NCBI RefSeq assembly: GCF_030209575.1
Contig: NZ_JARVRS010000001.1
Span: 2,790,001 to 2,854,000, forward strand
DNA length: 64,000 nt
Direction of reading: 5' to 3'
Origin: Leifsonia sp. fls2-241-R2A-40a
GTDB lineage: Bacteria > Actinomycetota > Actinomycetes > Actinomycetales > Microbacteriaceae
The notes beneath the pieces are model-generated. The model saw only the letters and a program-made list of their open reading frames with translations, searched no databases and was not told the DNA's origin. Positions 3,927 through 59,644 of the stretch are shown here, in pieces. Both the position numbers and the translations under genes were made by a program. Every line of letters begins with the position of its first letter. Within the stretch, counting starts at the first letter, position 1.

Positions 3927-3991
3927 GCCGAGATTTGCGCCAATTGTCCGTTATGGCGCACTGATTCCACACATTTGGCACAAATCTCGGC
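3927..3991. terminator. Bidirectional hairpin with alternative inner stem between convergent genes
   Basis: Arms 3927-3943 and 3975-3991 form a 17-bp stem with one mismatch. A perfect 7-bp inner hairpin (TGCGCCA at 3936-3942 with TGGCGCA at 3954-3960) shares bases with the left arm. The two folds therefore exclude each other in part. The position between convergent stop codons suits a bidirectional terminator. Confidence 0.6.
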
Positions 3992-4002: not shown

Positions 4003-5022
4003 TCAGGCGCGCACGACCGACACGGGCACGAACTCGCGCACCGGCTGCGCGATCGTCGCGGCGCAGGTGCTGAGCAGCGGTTGCGAGAGCTCCTCGCCGA
4101 CTTCCACCCGGAGGCGGTCGTCGCCGTGCGCCAACTCGACCGTCCAGCCGTGTGGATGCGCGTGCTCGCTCACGACCTGGAAAGCGTCGATCCGGTCGTC
4201 GCCGGTCGCCTCCCGGGCGAAGGCCTCGGCCGCCTGCGCGACGGTCGTCAGCGAGGTGCGACCGCGCAGGAGTTCCGGCACCACCCGCCCGGCGGAGTGT
4301 CGCTCGACGACGGTGGCCGCATCCTCCGCGCGGACGCGACCGTAGAGCAGACCCTCGGGGAAGACGATCATCGTGGCGGCGAACCGGTCGCCGCCCAGGT
4401 GCGAGCACTCCCAGGTGAGCTCGGGGTGGACGGCGGCCAGAGTCTCCACGACGGGCCGCCCGCGCACAGCGCAGCACTGGTCGTGCCGGGCGTGCGTGCA
4501 GACGGCGTAGAGCGGAGCGGCGCTTGGCTCACCGGCGCTGCCGTCGAGCGGCAGCGTCAGCAGGTCGGCCGGGTCGTCGACCGTGCCCCAGTGGATGCTC
4601 TCCCGGCCGGGTCGCGCATCCACCAGCGCCCATCGCCACGACGACTGCTCTCGGCGCAGCGGTGCGCGCAAGCGCGTGCGGCGGATCGTCAGCGGCCGGA
4701 TTCCGGCGGCTTCGGCGCGCGCGACGAGGGCCGCGCCCAGAGCCGGGTCCAGCGCGGAGTCGAAGAACGCGTGGCGACCCCATCCACTCTCGATCTCGAC
4801 GAGCAACCAGCGCTCGCCGAGTCCCGCCGTCCCGGCCAGCGGATCGCCGCGCTCCAACGCGCGATCGCTGCACGGCAGCCAGTCGATGCCTCCCGACGCG
4901 GTGATCGACCGAGACCCGTGTCCGGGCGCCGACTCCGGCACCGGGCGCTCGCCCCTCGGACGACCCGTGGACGCAGCGGCACCTGCGCCGCCGTCTGCGG
5001 GAGGACGCACGGCGGCGGTCAC
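4003..5022 (-). CDS. Sucrase/ferredoxin-like family protein (thioredoxin-fold Fe-S type)
   Basis: This 339-residue protein carries the family hallmarks CTHARHDQCC (Cys175, Cys183, Cys184) and WECSHLGGDRF (Cys206 onward). These resemble the thioredoxin-like [2Fe-2S] ferredoxin fold of sucrase/ferredoxin-like proteins. Its GTG start overlaps the stop of the upstream cupin gene as GTGA (5019-5022), so the two are translationally coupled. The family is poorly characterised. An electron-transfer or Fe-S role supporting the neighbouring oxygenase is an inference from context. It is the last gene of a three-gene operon that ends at a strong hairpin. Confidence 0.8.
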   Translation of the reverse strand: MTAAVRPPADGGAGAAASTGRPRGERPVPESAPGHGSRSITASGGIDWLPCSDRALERGDPLAGTAGLGERWLLVEIESGWGRHAFFDSALDPALGAALVARAEAAGIRPLTIRRTRLRAPLRREQSSWRWALVDARPGRESIHWGTVDDPADLLTLPLDGSAGEPSAAPLYAVCTHARHDQCCAVRGRPVVETLAAVHPELTWECSHLGGDRFAATMIVFPEGLLYGRVRAEDAATVVERHSAGRVVPELLRGRTSLTTVAQAAEAFAREATGDDRIDAFQVVSEHAHPHGWTVELAHGDDRLRVEVGEELSQPLLSTCAATIAQPVREFVPVSVVRA

Positions 5023-20930: not shown

Positions 20931-20998
20931 GCCGCCGAGCACAGGAAGAACGTCGCGATCCTGAGTGGATGCGCGACGTTCTTCCTGTGCTCGGCGGC
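20931..20998. terminator. Perfect 27-bp hairpin terminator, family A
   Basis: Arms 20931-20957 and 20972-20998 are perfectly complementary over 27 bp around a 14-nt loop. It lies between convergent topoisomerase IB and MFS genes. The right arm plus following bases (CTGTGCTCGGCGGCCAAG) recurs in the terminator after the sigma factor gene at about 23700. Confidence 0.8.
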
Positions 20999-23654: not shown

Positions 23655-23704
23655 CACAGGAAAAAGGTCGCTGATCCGGAAGGATCGGCGACCTTTTTGC
23701 TGTG
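23655..23704. terminator. Intrinsic terminator after the sigma factor gene, family A
   Basis: The stem CCACAG/CTGTGG-like base continues into AAAAAGGTCGC/GCGACCTTTTT (23661-23671 with 23688-23698). An inner hairpin GATCC-GGAA-GGATC occupies the loop. The T run and position between convergent genes indicate bidirectional termination. It shares the CACAGGAA and CTGTGCTCGGCGGCCAAG elements with the hairpin at 20931-20998. Confidence 0.85.
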
Positions 23705-38836: not shown

Positions 38837-39385
38837 ATGAGCGAACTGAGTCGTGAAGACGGCGCTCGGTACGACCTCGGACTCCTGTTCACCGACGGTC
38901 TCCCCGAGATGGACGACGTGAACGGCTACCGCGGTGCGGTCGCCGCCCGCGCAGCCGGCATCTCCTACCGTCAGCTGGACTACTGGGCGCGCACGGGACT
39001 GGTCGAGCCGACCGTCCGCGGCGCCGCCGGTTCCGGCTCGCAGCGCCTGTACGGCTTCCGCGACATCCTCGTCCTCAAGCTCGTGAAGCGCCTGCTCGAC
39101 ACCGGCATCTCGCTCCAGCAGATCCGCACCGCCGTCAACCAGCTCCGTGAGTCGGGGGTCAGCGACCTGGCCCAGACGACGCTGATGAGCGACGGCGCGA
39201 GCGTCTACCTCTGCACCTCGAACGACGAGGTCATCGACCTGGTCAGCCGCGGCCAGGGCGTCTTCGGCATCGCGGTCGGCAAGGTCCTCCGCGAGGTGGA
39301 GTCGAGCCTCGTCGAGCTCGACACGCAGGCCGAGGCCATGGACGAGCTCGCCGCTCGCCGCGCCGCCCGCACCCGCGCCTCCTAG
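38837..39385 (+). CDS. MerR-family regulator, second of the GarA-linked pair (Rv1830-like)
   Basis: This 182-residue MerR protein contains GISYRQLDYWARTGLVEPTVRGAAGSGSQRLYGFRDILVLKLVKRLLDTG. It corresponds in position to Rv1830 of the mycobacterial garA locus. The DUF151 nuclease gene (Rv1829) normally between the two MerR genes is absent here. GAGAGGCG precedes the ATG. Downstream, after the stop, begins a palindrome array. Confidence 0.85.
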   Translation: MSELSREDGARYDLGLLFTDGLPEMDDVNGYRGAVAARAAGISYRQLDYWARTGLVEPTVRGAAGSGSQRLYGFRDILVLKLVKRLLDTGISLQQIRTAVNQLRESGVSDLAQTTLMSDGASVYLCTSNDEVIDLVSRGQGVFGIAVGKVLREVESSLVELDTQAEAMDELAARRAARTRAS

Positions 39386-39407: not shown

Positions 39408-39538
39408 GCGCATTCGTGACGAATGCGCGCCGTTCGTCACGAATGGCCGCCATTCGTCACGAATCCCAGCGCGAGCCTCGTACCCATTCGTCACGAATGA
39501 GCGCCATTCGTCACGAAAGGCCGCCATTCGTGACGAAT
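39408..39538. repeat. Array 1: six 13-bp palindromes ATTCGT(C/G)ACGAAT in 20-bp phase
   Basis: Copies start at 39412, 39432, 39452, 39486, 39506 and 39526. Four are perfect; 39432 (first base G) and 39506 (last base A) have one change each. Spacing is exactly 20 bp within each triplet, with a 34-bp step between triplets. The 7-bp spacers are G/C-rich (GCGCGCC, GGCCGCC, GAGCGCC). The array fills the gap between the convergent second MerR gene and parA. The same motif and period recur at 46721 and 47749. Confidence 0.9.
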
Positions 39539-39556: not shown

Positions 39557-40366
39557 TCAGGACTGGGCGGTCGCGTACTCGCCGATGCGGGCGGTGCGCA
39601 GCACGCGCTCCAGCAGCATGTCGAAGTTGTGCGCCATCTCCTGCGCGCTCTCGCCCGGCCAGACGTGGAGGGGCTTGGCCGCGCCCTGCGCCTGCTGCAG
39701 CGAGGTGCGCTCCGGAAGCTGAGGGGAGAGCACGAGCGGCCCGAACATGTCGCGCAGCTCCTTGATCCGGAACTGGTGCTCGAGCGACTGGACGCGCGCG
39801 CGGTTGACGATGATGCCGAGCGGCTGGAGGCGCGGCGAGAGTCCGCGGCGGATCTCCTCGATCGCGCGCAGTGCACGGTCCGCGGCGGCCACCGAGAACA
39901 GGCCCGGCTCGGTCACCACGGCGACGCGGTCGCTCGCGGCCCACGCCGTGCGGGTGAGTGCGTTCAGCGACGGAGCGCAGTCGATCAGCACGAGCTCGTA
40001 GTCGTGCTCGACGTTCGCGAGCGCCTCCTCGAGCTTCCAGATGTCGCGGATGCTCGGGTGCGGACCGTCGAAGTTGATCGCCGACGGGCTTCCGATCATC
40101 ACATCGATCGTGCCGGAGCGGCCCTTGGTCCAGCCGGACGGCGCGATCGCCGCGCGCACGATCTTCTCCTTGGGGGAGGCGAGCACGTCGGCCACATTGA
40201 GGTGCCCGGCGACCTGGATGTCCATCCCGGTGGACACGTCCGACTGCGGGTCGAGGTCCACGACCAGCGTGCGAAGTCCCTTCGCGAACGCCGCCGACGC
40301 CAGTCCGAGCGTCACCGTGGTCTTTCCGACACCGCCCTTGAGGGAGCTAACGCTGAGTACGTGCAC
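39557..40366 (-). CDS. ParA/Soj-family ATPase
   Basis: This 269-residue Walker-type ATPase begins [27 protein letters not shown], a deviant Walker A with signature Lys. It also has VVDLDPQSDVSTG and LVLIDCAPSLNALT. ParA proteins position DNA or protein complexes on the nucleoid. No parB or canonical parS lies nearby, so it is an orphan. GTG 40366 is preferred because TAACGT (40374-40379) is 7 nt upstream (leaderless). Its stop is 18 bp from the palindrome array. Confidence 0.87.
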   Translation of the reverse strand: MHVLSVSSLKGGVGKTTVTLGLASAAFAKGLRTLVVDLDPQSDVSTGMDIQVAGHLNVADVLASPKEKIVRAAIAPSGWTKGRSGTIDVMIGSPSAINFDGPHPSIRDIWKLEEALANVEHDYELVLIDCAPSLNALTRTAWAASDRVAVVTEPGLFSVAAADRALRAIEEIRRGLSPRLQPLGIIVNRARVQSLEHQFRIKELRDMFGPLVLSPQLPERTSLQQAQGAAKPLHVWPGESAQEMAHNFDMLLERVLRTARIGEYATAQS

Positions 40367-40445
40367 GACAGCCACGTTACCTTTACTAGTGTTAGAGAAC
40401 CTAACCGTTTGCTGTGTGGTGTCGACCCCTGCTCGAAAGGTCCCC

Positions 40446-45856: not shown

Positions 45857-46702
45857 ATGCGAATCGCGGTCACTGGAGGGTCGGGCAAGCTCGGGCGCAC
45901 GGTCGTGCGCGAGCTGCGGAAATCGGGGGACGTCGTCGTCTCCCTCGACGCAGTGGGGGAGCGTGGTCCGGGCTTCGTCCGCGTGGACCTGACCGACTAC
46001 GGCCAGACGGTGGATGCGATCTTCGGCGTCAACGACCAGCACGACGGCTTCGACGCGATCGTGCATCTGGCCGCGATCCCGGCGCCGGGCATCCTCCCCG
46101 ATGTCGCCACCTTCCACAACAACATCCGCGTCACCTACAACGTTTTCCAGGCTGCTCGCCGAGCGGGCATCCGGAACATCGTCTACGCGTCCAGCGAGAC
46201 CGTGCTGGGCCTGCCGTTCGACGTGCCTCCGCCGTACATCCCCGTAGACGAGGACTACCCGGCGCGTCCCGAGAGCACGTACTCGCTGGTGAAGCACCTC
46301 GAGGAGCAGATGGCGATCGAGCTGGTCCGCTGGGACCCGGCGCTCAAGATCGTCGCACTCCGGTTCTCGAACGTGATGGACCCGGAGGACTACGCCGCGT
46401 TCCCCGCCTTCGACGACGACCCGTGGGCGCGCAAGTGGAACCTGTGGGGCTACATCGACGCCCGCGACGGCGCGCAGGCCATCCGCCGCGCGCTGGAGTG
46501 GGATACGACCGGCTTCGACCGCTTCATCATCGCCGCCGCCGACACGGTGATGAGCCGCCCCAACGACGAGCTCGTGGCCGAGGTCTTCCCCGGCGTGCCG
46601 CTCAAGCGCGACCTCGGCGTCAACGACACGCTGCTGTCGATCGACAAGGCTCGCCGCATCCTCGGCTACGCCCCCACCCACTCCTGGCGCGACGAGGTCT
46701 GA
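45857..46702 (+). CDS. NAD(P)-dependent epimerase/dehydratase (extended SDR)
   Basis: This 281-residue protein has a Rossmann motif VTGGSGKLGRTVVREL at the N-terminus and a catalytic pair YSLVK near residue 140. An upstream Ser lies in YASSETVLG. It resembles sugar-nucleotide epimerase/dehydratases; the substrate is unknown. TAGACT (45844-45849) is 7 nt before the ATG (leaderless). Palindrome array 2 starts 18 bp after its stop. Confidence 0.87.
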   Translation: MRIAVTGGSGKLGRTVVRELRKSGDVVVSLDAVGERGPGFVRVDLTDYGQTVDAIFGVNDQHDGFDAIVHLAAIPAPGILPDVATFHNNIRVTYNVFQAARRAGIRNIVYASSETVLGLPFDVPPPYIPVDEDYPARPESTYSLVKHLEEQMAIELVRWDPALKIVALRFSNVMDPEDYAAFPAFDDDPWARKWNLWGYIDARDGAQAIRRALEWDTTGFDRFIIAAADTVMSRPNDELVAEVFPGVPLKRDLGVNDTLLSIDKARRILGYAPTHSWRDEV

Positions 46703-46720: not shown

Positions 46721-46773
46721 ATTCGTCACGAATGTGCAAGATTCGTCACGAATGTGCGAGATTCGTCACGAAT
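46721..46773. repeat. Array 2: three perfect ATTCGTCACGAAT palindromes at 20-bp period
   Basis: Copies start at 46721, 46741 and 46761, all with central C, separated by 7-bp spacers GTGCAAG and GTGCGAG. They lie between the epimerase stop and the nuclease-like gene. The phase is identical to arrays 1 and 3. Confidence 0.92.
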
Positions 46774-46873
46774 TCGCGCGGGGAGAGGTGCGTGGTGGAT
46801 CTGTGCATGGGGGAGTTATTCACAGAAGCGCCGGGCTCCTCCTCGGGAGACTGCCGCCACGGGAGCCTGAAGC

Positions 46874-47857
46874 ATGCGAAGCTCTCGAATCGTTACAGCG
46901 CCTACCTCTTTTGCGCCTCCGCCGACCGGCGAATCCGCAAGTGGGCGCGGGGCTCCCCGCGTGCCTGCCGTGGATCCGCTGCGTCCGTTCCACGGTGTCC
47001 ACCTCCTGACCGCCCCGGGCACTGTCGGCGCGCTCTGCCGCGCGTATCTGCCTCTGATGCCGGAGGACGCGTTTTTCAGCCATCAGACGGCGGCGGCATT
47101 GCTCGGCATCCCACTGCCCGCGGACGTCGCTCACGCTGCCCTGCACGTATCGGTCGCCTTTCCGCGTACTCCTCCGCGAGGTCGCGGTGTGGTCGGACAC
47201 AGCCTCGGAACGGTACTCGGCGGAGCGTTCAACGGCCTGCCGGTCTGCACGCCGGAGCAGGTCTGGTGCCAGCTGTCCGGCGTATTCGCACCGGCGGACC
47301 TCGTTGCGGCGGGGGATCACCTCGTAGGGTCGCGATCCCGTCCCCCGCTCGTCGAACTCGCGCGGCTTGCGGACGCTGCCGGGCATATGCGTCGCACGAA
47401 AGGCGCGATGGCTCGCACCTGGGCGCTGTCGCGCATCCGGTTCGGTGCGGACTCGCGACCCGAGACGCTTCTCCGATTGCTTCTGGAAGAGTTGGGCTTC
47501 GACGACATCGAAGTCAATCGACCCGTGGTCGTCGACGGCGGTCGATTGACGCTGCACCCCGACCTGATCATCCGTGAGGCGCAGCTCGCGTTCGAGTACG
47601 AGGGTGACGGTCATCGTGTGGACCGTCGGCAGTGGAGTGCCGACATCCGGCGCCGTGAACTGCTCGAGGCCCGAGGTTGGCGAGTCGTCCGAGTGACCGC
47701 GGACGATCTCTTCCACAATCGGGACGCGTTCGTCAGCCGCCTCGACGGATTCGTGACGAACGTCGCCGATTCGTCACGAATGCTCAGGATTCGTGACGAA
47801 TGGTCAGCCGCTCAGTGGGCGAGCGAGAAGCCCTGCGTGCTCGGGTTGTCGCTGTAG
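46874..47857 (+). CDS. AbiEi-like/PD-(D/E)XK (DUF559-type) protein bracketed by palindrome arrays
   Basis: This 327-residue protein's middle resembles AbiEi-type proteins (FFSHQTAAALLGIPLP). The C-terminal region is a Vsr/DUF559-like PD-(D/E)XK fold (LHPDLIIREAQLAFEYEGDGHR, then LEARGWRVVRVTADDL). Such genes are common orphans in actinobacteria; true toxin-antitoxin function is unproved. The last 35 or so codons are mostly translation of palindrome array 3, so the natural C-terminus was probably just after FVSRLDG. The 3' end also overlaps the convergent acyl-CoA ligase gene by 46 bp. Confidence 0.72.
   Translation: MRSSRIVTAPTSFAPPPTGESASGRGAPRVPAVDPLRPFHGVHLLTAPGTVGALCRAYLPLMPEDAFFSHQTAAALLGIPLPADVAHAALHVSVAFPRTPPRGRGVVGHSLGTVLGGAFNGLPVCTPEQVWCQLSGVFAPADLVAAGDHLVGSRSRPPLVELARLADAAGHMRRTKGAMARTWALSRIRFGADSRPETLLRLLLEELGFDDIEVNRPVVVDGGRLTLHPDLIIREAQLAFEYEGDGHRVDRRQWSADIRRRELLEARGWRVVRVTADDLFHNRDAFVSRLDGFVTNVADSSRMLRIRDEWSAAQWASEKPCVLGLSL
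47749..47801. repeat. Array 3: three ATTCGT(C/G)ACGAAT palindromes at 20-bp period inside a 3' coding end
   Basis: Copies start at 47749 (last base C), 47769 and 47789, centres G, C, G. They fall in the 3' end of the nuclease-like gene and stop 10 bp before the end of the convergent ligase gene. Confidence 0.92.
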
Positions 47858-49641
47858 AGGCCGTCGATCACGTCGGCGAAGTCGGCGAGGATGACGTTGC
47901 GCTTGATGCTGAGCTTCGGCGTGAGGTGCCCGCTCGCCTCGCTCAGCTCCGTCGCGAGAACGACGAACTTGCGGACGCTCTCGGCGCGCGAGACTCCCGC
48001 GTTCGCGTGGTCGATCGCACGCTGGATCTCGGCGTGCACCGCCGGGTTCACGGACGCCTCGGCGAGGGTCATGTCCTTGTCCTCGCCGTTGTTCGCGAGC
48101 CAGGTCGGCAGCATCTCGGTGTCGAGGGTGACCAGCGCCGAGATGAACGGCTTCTGGTCGCCGACCACGATCACCTGGCCGACCAGCGGGTTGGAGCGGA
48201 TGGGGTCCTCGAGCGCAGCAGGGGAGACATTCTTGCCGCCCGCCGTGACGATGATCTCCTTCTTCCGGCCGGTGATGGTGAGGAACCCGTCCTCGTCGAA
48301 CGACCCGAGATCGCCCGTGCGGAACCAGCCGTCGTCGAACGCCGCAGCGGTCGCCTCCGGGTTCTTCCAGTACTCCTTGAAGACGTTGATGCCGCGCACC
48401 TGGATCTCGCCGTCCGCCGCGAGGCGCAGGTCCACACCGGGGAGGGCGGGGCCGACGGTGCCGATCTTGAACCGGTCGGGTCGGCTGACCGTGGCCGGTG
48501 CTGTCGTCTCGGTGAGGCCGTAGCCCTCCAGCACCTTGATGCCGAGGCTGTGGAAGAAGTGTCCGAGGTGCGAGCCGAGCGGAGCGGAACCCGAGACGGC
48601 GAACTTCACGCGGCCACCCATGGCGGCGCGGAGCTTCGAGAAGACCAGCCGGTCGTACAGCGCGAACTTCAGCTTCAGCGCGAACGGCACCGCACCGGTC
48701 TCGAGGGCCTTCGAGTGCGCGACCGCGACCTCGGCGGCGGCGCGGAAGATCTTGCCGCGGCCGCCCGACTCCGCCTTCTGCTCGGCCGAGTTGTAGACCT
48801 TCTCGAACACGCGCGGCACGGCCAGGAGGAACGTCGGCTTGAAGCTCGCCAGCGCGGGCAGCAGCTGCTTCGTGTCGGCCTGGTGCCCGACCTTCACGCC
48901 GCCCGTGACGCTCAGGACGGAGATGAAGCGCGCGAACACGTGCGCGGCGGTGATGAAGAGCAGCGTGGATGCGCCTCCCGGCTGCTGCACGACCTCTTTC
49001 AGCGCCTCGGCGGAGTTGCGCGACAGCTCGACGAAGTTCGCGTGCGTGAGGACGCATCCCTTCGGCCGCCCAGTCGAGCCGGAGGTGTAGATGAGGGTTC
49101 CGATGTCGGAGCCCTTGGCCAGCTTCCGCCGGCGCTCGATCTCGCCGTCGGGAACGTCCACGCCCGCGGCGACGAGCTTGTCGAGGTCGCCCAGGTGCAG
49201 CTGCCAGACAGTGCGGATGAGGGGGAGCTCCGGGTGCACCTCGTCGAAGCGGGCGTGCATCTCGGCCGTCTCCAGGAAGACCGCGATGGCCCCGGAGTCG
49301 GACATGTTCCACTGCACCTGCGAGGGGGAGGAGGTCTCGTAGATCGGCACCAGCACGGCGCCGGCGAACCACACGGCGAAATCGATGAGGGTCCACTCGT
49401 AGCGGGTCTTCGACATGAGGCCGATCTTGTCGCCGGGCTCGATGCCTGCGGCCACGAGGCCCTTGGCGAGCGCGATGACCTGGCGGTGGAACTCCGCTGC
49501 CGTGACGTCTTTCCAACCGCCGCCGTCCGGCAGGCTGAACAGGGGCAGATCGGGCGTCTGAGTCACTCGGTCGACCAGCAGGTCGGTGGTGTTGGCCTCC
49601 GGGTCGAGCGGGACGACGACGGGGGTTTCGATCACATTCAC
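47812..49641 (-). CDS. Long-chain fatty acid-CoA ligase (FadD15-like)
   Basis: This 609-residue AMP-binding enzyme has the P-loop TLIYTSGSTGRPKGCVLTH near residue 190, YGLTETTAP near 375, and TGDLGSFDEDGFLTITGRKKEII near 445. It activates fatty acids to acyl-CoA via acyl-AMP at the membrane. Order with glucokinase, PlsC and DAHP synthase matches the block containing fadD15 (Rv2187) in M. tuberculosis. GTG 49641 follows GGGAGC. It overlaps the convergent nuclease-like gene at its 3' end. Confidence 0.9.
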   Translation of the reverse strand: MNVIETPVVVPLDPEANTTDLLVDRVTQTPDLPLFSLPDGGGWKDVTAAEFHRQVIALAKGLVAAGIEPGDKIGLMSKTRYEWTLIDFAVWFAGAVLVPIYETSSPSQVQWNMSDSGAIAVFLETAEMHARFDEVHPELPLIRTVWQLHLGDLDKLVAAGVDVPDGEIERRRKLAKGSDIGTLIYTSGSTGRPKGCVLTHANFVELSRNSAEALKEVVQQPGGASTLLFITAAHVFARFISVLSVTGGVKVGHQADTKQLLPALASFKPTFLLAVPRVFEKVYNSAEQKAESGGRGKIFRAAAEVAVAHSKALETGAVPFALKLKFALYDRLVFSKLRAAMGGRVKFAVSGSAPLGSHLGHFFHSLGIKVLEGYGLTETTAPATVSRPDRFKIGTVGPALPGVDLRLAADGEIQVRGINVFKEYWKNPEATAAAFDDGWFRTGDLGSFDEDGFLTITGRKKEIIVTAGGKNVSPAALEDPIRSNPLVGQVIVVGDQKPFISALVTLDTEMLPTWLANNGEDKDMTLAEASVNPAVHAEIQRAIDHANAGVSRAESVRKFVVLATELSEASGHLTPKLSIKRNVILADFADVIDGLYSDNPSTQGFSLAH

Positions 49642-52936: not shown

Positions 52937-52984
52937 TGACGCAACACGCCGCCCCGGCCTCGGCCGGGGCGGCGTGTTGCGTCA
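52937..52984. terminator. 23-bp perfect hairpin terminator, family B
   Basis: Arms 52937-52959 and 52962-52984 are perfectly complementary. The left arm contains TGACGCAACACGCCGC, identical to the metI terminator at 9479-9541. It isolates the DAHP synthase gene from the AT-rich promoter of the next gene. Confidence 0.8.
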
Positions 52985-59529: not shown

Positions 59530-59644
59530 GCCGTGCGTCCCTGACGCCGGACTCCCAGCCATACGCCCTGACACCACTTCCCCGGTGTCAGGTCGGGATG
59601 GATGGGGATCCGGAACCAGGGGCGGCGGACCGTCCCGATCGACC

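Follow-up and report, generated by a model that had tools for sequence, protein, structure and literature searches.

Uptake sequences of the DUS and USS kind are short conserved words that occur as inverted pairs at the ends of genes. REP elements and their composites, BIMEs and REPINs, carry GTAG and CGTC tags and are described, in the portion of PMC3733652 available, as extragenic palindromes that are present in many copies and have a sequence bound to the species. The same portion places REP-type elements mostly in convergent or co-directional gaps, downstream of coding regions, where inverted pairs of them build a larger dyad. Here, we describe a palindrome array between a MerR-family gene and a convergent ParA-like gene in a 64,000-nt window of a Leifsonia chromosome (the window being the whole stretch of DNA that was analysed). 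It represents a genus-wide 53-bp gene-end element in the variant with three palindromes, and each of the two converging genes has a triplet of its own (Table 1). The literature that we searched, which leaves most subscription journals outside its coverage, contained no report of these Leifsonia elements; matches to the string ATTCGTCACGAAT were judged unrelated from their titles and the opening of their abstracts, and the available portions of PMC3733652 and PMC12306157 do not name Leifsonia.

A sequence-only reading of this DNA had placed six palindromes in the gap, and all six are there, as two triplets with successive steps of 20, 20, 34, 20 and 20 bp. The word ATTCGT(C/G)ACGAAT that it gave for all of them is exact in four copies; the copies at 39432 and 39506 each differ by one outermost mismatch, G at position 1 and A at position 13 respectively. 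The four spacers have the constant 7-bp length and G/C composition claimed for them, with G or C at 27/28 bases. Across the window, 12 matches were found at up to 2 mismatches, against 0.69 expected, and none of 100 shuffles reached 12; the six matches outside the merR-parA gap form two further triplets. The two flanking genes converge, as the reading had it. The ParA-like protein gene is 99% identical over its best segment to a gene of Leifsonia virtsii, and its ten best matches are from Leifsonia or other Microbacteriaceae.

Table 1. Coordinates of the elements and neighbouring genes in the 64,000-nt window.
Feature	Position	Strand	Remarks
13-27-13 skeleton, other dialect (ATTTGCGCCAATT ... 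ATTTGGCACAAAT)	3933..3985	.	one mismatch; 89-bp convergent gap
MerR-family gene	38837..39385	+	PF13411, E 3e-15; ends before triplet 1
Triplet 1	39412..39464	.	palindromes at 39412, 39432 and 39452, 7-bp spacers; 26 bp past merR stop
Triplet 2	39486..39538	.	palindromes at 39486, 39506 and 39526; 18 bp past parA stop
ParA-like ATPase gene	39557..40375	-	ends before triplet 2; match in 28/28 Leifsonia genomes
Triplet	46721..46773	.	three exact copies; 18 bp past stop of epimerase-family gene 45857-46702
Stop-to-stop frame with DUF559 domain	46871..47857	+	above Pfam cut-off; related REase_MTES_1575 below its own cut-off
Triplet	47749..47801	.	first copy with one mismatch; 10 bp past stop of AMP-binding (acyl-CoA synthetase-like) gene 47812-49641

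The geometry seen in the window holds throughout the source genome (Leifsonia, 3,753,110 bases). The exact 13-mer occurs 49 times, against 0 for the reversed pattern, and a search for the pair pattern at up to 3 mismatches returned 44 pairs that resolve without remainder into 22 triplets. Each of the 49 exact copies sits inside one of them, and the genome has neither a lone exact copy nor a doublet. The sequence-only reading had named unphased, isolated copies at chance level, or arrays missing from close relatives, as evidence against it, and neither was seen. Among 28 Leifsonia genomes, exact pairs are present in 5, and with spacers of 6 to 8 bp allowed the spacer is 7 bp long in every one of the 47 pairs. 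Arm-to-arm offsets between 20 and 80 bp in the source-genome stretches gave 35 matches at 20 bp, 21 at 40 bp and 6 at all other offsets combined. In the stretches fetched from five genomes, 13-mers with at most 1 mismatch that have no partner at 20 or 40 bp number 2/335 (one of the two in a stretch of genome G024) and 0/65 in the source genome. A longer array with the same geometry occurs at L145 (genome G017, about 4266-4475), where ATTCGTGACGAAT and TTCGTGGCACGAA alternate at 20-bp steps. The 20-bp phase that was first noted is exact, and the helical phase runs deeper than that: A/T triplets recur in the element triplets with a period of exactly 10 bp.

The triplet is a variant of a 53-bp skeleton that reads ATTYGnnnCRAAT-27-ATTYGnnnCRAAT. 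Searched as ATTYGNNNCRAAT-N27-ATTYGNNNCRAAT with at most 1 mismatch and with overlapping matches tallied separately, the skeleton was found in 24/28 Leifsonia genomes, at 1 to 348 matches per genome and 42 in the source genome, and a reversed skeleton gave 0 in each of the 28. The highest count, 348 in G022, corresponds to about one match per 11 kb with overlaps not separated. Four genomes (G003, G012, G014 and G027) have no match at this stringency, and the element is therefore nothing essential to the genus. Positions 20-22 and 32-34, which the pattern does not set, are 92-99% A/T in 75 elements from G001 and G002, and these inner tracts are 85-89% A/T in a wider sample of 77 elements. Because the inner tracts are A/T-rich, A/T triplets recur along the skeleton at about 2, 12, 21, 33, 42 and 52. 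The gap after the AMP-binding gene carries a 13 + 27 + 13 unit with at most 3 mismatches in 23/28 genomes, 22 of them within 1; its arms are mostly reverse-complementary, each is nearly palindromic, and the middle is either free or occupied by a third palindrome. The length of this particular element is partly coding matter, since it also codes for the C-terminal end of the DUF559 protein; the remaining source-genome triplets likewise span 53 bases. Beyond these genomes, the two-copy pattern, with no more than 2 mismatches allowed, matched only the source genome among 398 Microbacteriaceae genomes (388 from other genera), and an offset-40 scan of 80 loci around parA found the skeleton in L. 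virtsii only. Viral contigs held no match to the 13-mer pair, and plasmid and phage collections none to the array. Rfam, run on the window arrays and five further loci, returned no match on the arrays; elsewhere in the window, 59533-59631 is an mraW RNA motif (RF01746).

These elements lie at gene ends. In the source genome, 15/22 triplets are in gaps called convergent and 21/22 have a neighbouring gene that ends 9 to 132 bp away. Genes were called by a codon-usage script that missed the DUF559 ORF, and the triplet at 46721, although tallied as convergent, is for this reason truly in a tandem gap. Two gaps carry one triplet per converging gene, the merR-parA gap and that of a XerD-like recombinase (21 and 22 bp from the stops). 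The neighbouring genes look like diverse metabolic and housekeeping genes by reading of their translations, few of them Pfam-checked. For a larger set we used the source genome and four relatives (12, 31, 20 and 20 stretches around their arrays) with a search pattern that demands three copies. Of 128 places, 126 were used, the two omitted being G016 C4:1-53, which lies at a contig end, and G026 C1:1179929; eight overlapping pairs were merged. The resulting 118 arrays comprise 81 in convergent gaps, 32 in tandem gaps (26 closer to the 3' end) and 5 in divergent gaps, and 59 independent loci comprise 42 convergent and 2 divergent. Gaps of the window served as the baseline, because gaps taken from array-centred stretches are biased. 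Window gaps of any length (n=58) include 12 convergent and 12 divergent (Fisher p 3e-8 and 0.004 against the loci), and those of at least 60 bp (n=34) include 8 and 12 (p 9e-6 and 7e-5). The median distance from an array to the nearest stop is 16 bp, with 93/113 within 50 bp and 6 overlapping a called gene. Elements of the classical form are placed similarly: of 79, from 64 stretches of which 5 come from array genomes, 41 lie in convergent gaps, 26 in tandem gaps (20 closer to the 3' end) and 7 in divergent gaps, with 5 at an edge. The main divergent-gap case has arrays in three species, and in the source genome its array is placed between an NrtR-like Nudix gene and the tandem glycine riboswitch upstream of gcvT (L097 3129-3328).

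Within the window, the 3' end of the DUF559 ORF overlaps the triplet at 47749 in frame, its last codons reaching into the triplet. The corresponding neighbour ORF of several other Leifsonia likewise ends in such an element, and G012 and G014 have neither the ORF nor an element at the AMP-binding gene locus. The two triplets flanking this ORF suggested the DUF559 nuclease as a mobilising enzyme, a candidate that we rejected: elements lie within 1.5 kb of 4/11 DUF559 matches (in four genomes), all of them copies of this one locus, and none lies within 1.5 kb of the remaining 7 (3 in the source genome). Triplets occupy 2 of the window's eight convergent gaps of at least 60 bp, an ATTTG-dialect element occupies 1 and other long hairpins 3 (a T-tract accompanies one of them); the remaining 2 have none of these. 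Long hairpins without a T-tract in convergent gaps of the window include 20931-20998 (a 28-bp stem with one mismatch) and 52937-52984 (a 22-bp perfect stem). Triplets, ATTTG-dialect elements and other hairpins thus seem interchangeable in a common task, to mark where converging genes end.

Both position and phase are conserved between species. Of the 22 source-genome arrays, 19 have a counterpart array in the orthologous gap of one or more of the four relatives. Across 45 ortholog pairs, the palindromes are 92% identical and the spacers 70%, compared with 53% for the spacers of random pairs. The 13-mers are thus conserved as sequence while the spacers drift; the protein binding proposed by the earlier reading, with a putative binder, is also the reading that we favor. 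Three copies make up 110/118 arrays and four copies 8/118 (the pattern required three). The arrays fall into two types. In type A (30/118), the outer arms are ATTCGTGCCGAAT ... ATTCGGCACGAAT and the spacers are complementary, with 15 compensatory cells (7.0 in shuffles, of which 0/200 reach 15). Type B (88/118) consists of three copies of ATTCGTSACGAAT with C or G about 50:50 at each centre. Its 88 arrays show no covariation above shuffles for P1:P2, P2:P3 or P1:P3, and their spacers have a weak excess of complementarity (0.54 vs 0.49; 0/200 shuffles). The two types swap at one and the same site, for example in L085 vs L195 and in L097 vs L234.

We favor, at somewhat under an even chance, a model in which the array is two gene-end elements whose 13-mers are held by a putative dimeric protein, and in which the occupied DNA forms a boundary against converging polymerases, stopping or insulating them. 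The 13-bp dyads and the A/T triplets, spaced about every helical turn, would come to lie on roughly one face of the DNA. The element would then work mainly as DNA, a REP-like boundary at gene ends, on which putative dimers could sit side by side and bind cooperatively, three per triplet and two on the classical form. So bound, the boundary would stop or insulate the converging RNA polymerases together with their supercoils. Action as DNA is favored because the elements retain their sequence, phase and number without retaining inter-copy pairing in type B, and because the inner tracts stay A/T although 62/182 opposing A/T cells in the classical sample cannot pair (120/182 can). The sense strands of 59 tandem-gap elements point the same way: G-U (32) is no commoner than A-C (39; p 0.48), which counts for DNA action since selection for RNA pairing should favor G-U. 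It is less likely that the phased dyads bind one dedicated putative protein that serves as roadblock terminator or supercoil insulator between convergent genes throughout the genus, the word drifting into dialects along with the protein. The element itself is well supported, with its phase, its position past genes, its conservation and its changes of form among species, whereas the protein, the cooperativity of its binding and the effect on transcription are inferred. The elements probably set a boundary between adjacent genes.

The main rival is that the transcribed palindromes act as an RNA hairpin, which terminates transcription without a U-tract or shields mRNA 3' ends as REP hairpins do. 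We consider this doubtful, though it accounts for the gene-end position and draws on several signs of pairing. In classical elements (n=75), arms pair across the dyad at 0.919 against 0.854 in shuffles (0/500) and inner tracts at 0.579 against 0.498 (1/500); with pairing above shuffles here and in the spacers of type A, a hairpin or whole-element dyad is therefore also kept. The 70-nt stretches holding the source triplets form stable hairpins of -39.5 and -35.0 kcal/mol, folds computed without a shuffle control. Near relatives carry other strong folds, likewise without a shuffle control, in the merR-parA gap (G009, G010, G019 and G021) and in the xerD-like gap (G009, with the ATTTG dialect in G019 and G021). 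Against an RNA hairpin, a U-tract (at least 4 T in 10 nt) adjoins the arrays at 0/236 flanks and classical elements at 8/160, the copies of type B do not covary, and G-U does not exceed A-C. An RNA hairpin also leaves the exact 7-bp spacers and the 10-bp A/T triplets, a third of which cannot pair, without explanation.

That the elements are selfish, MITE- or REPIN-like repeats, spread by an unknown enzyme, best tolerated past stops and without host function, is in our estimate quite improbable. The range from 0 to 348 matches among species of one genus, the several dialects and the tandem copies at some loci all suit such a repeat, but the place shared by source and relatives for most arrays despite diverged spacers does not, nor does the exchange of type A and type B at one site or the lack of matches in plasmid, phage and viral collections. 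A RAYT-driven REP was rejected on a result that also speaks against a selfish repeat: the Y1 transposase family PF01797 was matched in 0/28 genomes, and in 5/14 controls. We give hardly any credence to the array being an operator array in the regulon of some transcription factor, or a partition site that belongs with the adjoining ParA. Palindromes in helical phase and the triplet pair beside parA would fit either, yet divergent gaps account for only 2/59 loci, unlike the promoter-region sites of related genes that a regulon would have, and the neighbours seem functionally unrelated as far as their translations (few Pfam-checked) tell. The special tie to parA falls away, as the merR-parA gap is one of about 20 places dispersed over the chromosome, at which the 22 triplets lie rather than in one or a few clusters. 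The sequence-only reading was right that the array is no canonical parS, CRISPR or simple terminator, given its many loci in place of a single partition site and its lack of a U-tract.

The strict geometry of the elements, their many natural variants, the changes of form at orthologous sites and the existence of element-free genomes offer a way to tell DNA phase from RNA pairing. If the boundary model is true, convergent transcription units can be kept apart without U-tracts. Bidirectional intrinsic terminators resemble the Leifsonia elements in being dyads that lie in convergent gaps right past the stops, and the window has hairpins with T-tracts that resemble such terminators at 23655 and 58885. 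Unlike them, the Leifsonia arrays have no U-tract, and in type B the pairing between copies is not conserved. With DUS and USS the elements share a short conserved word that is set in inverted pairs where genes end; in contrast to these they are not scattered singly, every exact copy in the source genome belonging to a triplet. The likeness to REP, BIME and REPIN elements goes furthest: as the available portion of PMC3733652 describes for those, the Leifsonia elements are high-copy extragenic palindromes past genes and between converging genes. However, neither a RAYT match nor a REP foot accompanies them: GTAG and CGTC are absent from the 8 nt outside the elements, where the ends are G/C-rich (arrays) or AC (classical), and CGTC does arise within the palindrome itself, in C-centred copies. 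They differ further in their fixed length of 53 bp, their quanta of 20 and 40 bp and their A/T triplets every 10 bp. We therefore regard the Leifsonia element as REP- or BIME-like in position and do not file it as a REP family; should it prove to be a boundary, it would show that a RAYT transposase is not needed for REP-like elements to arise and persist.
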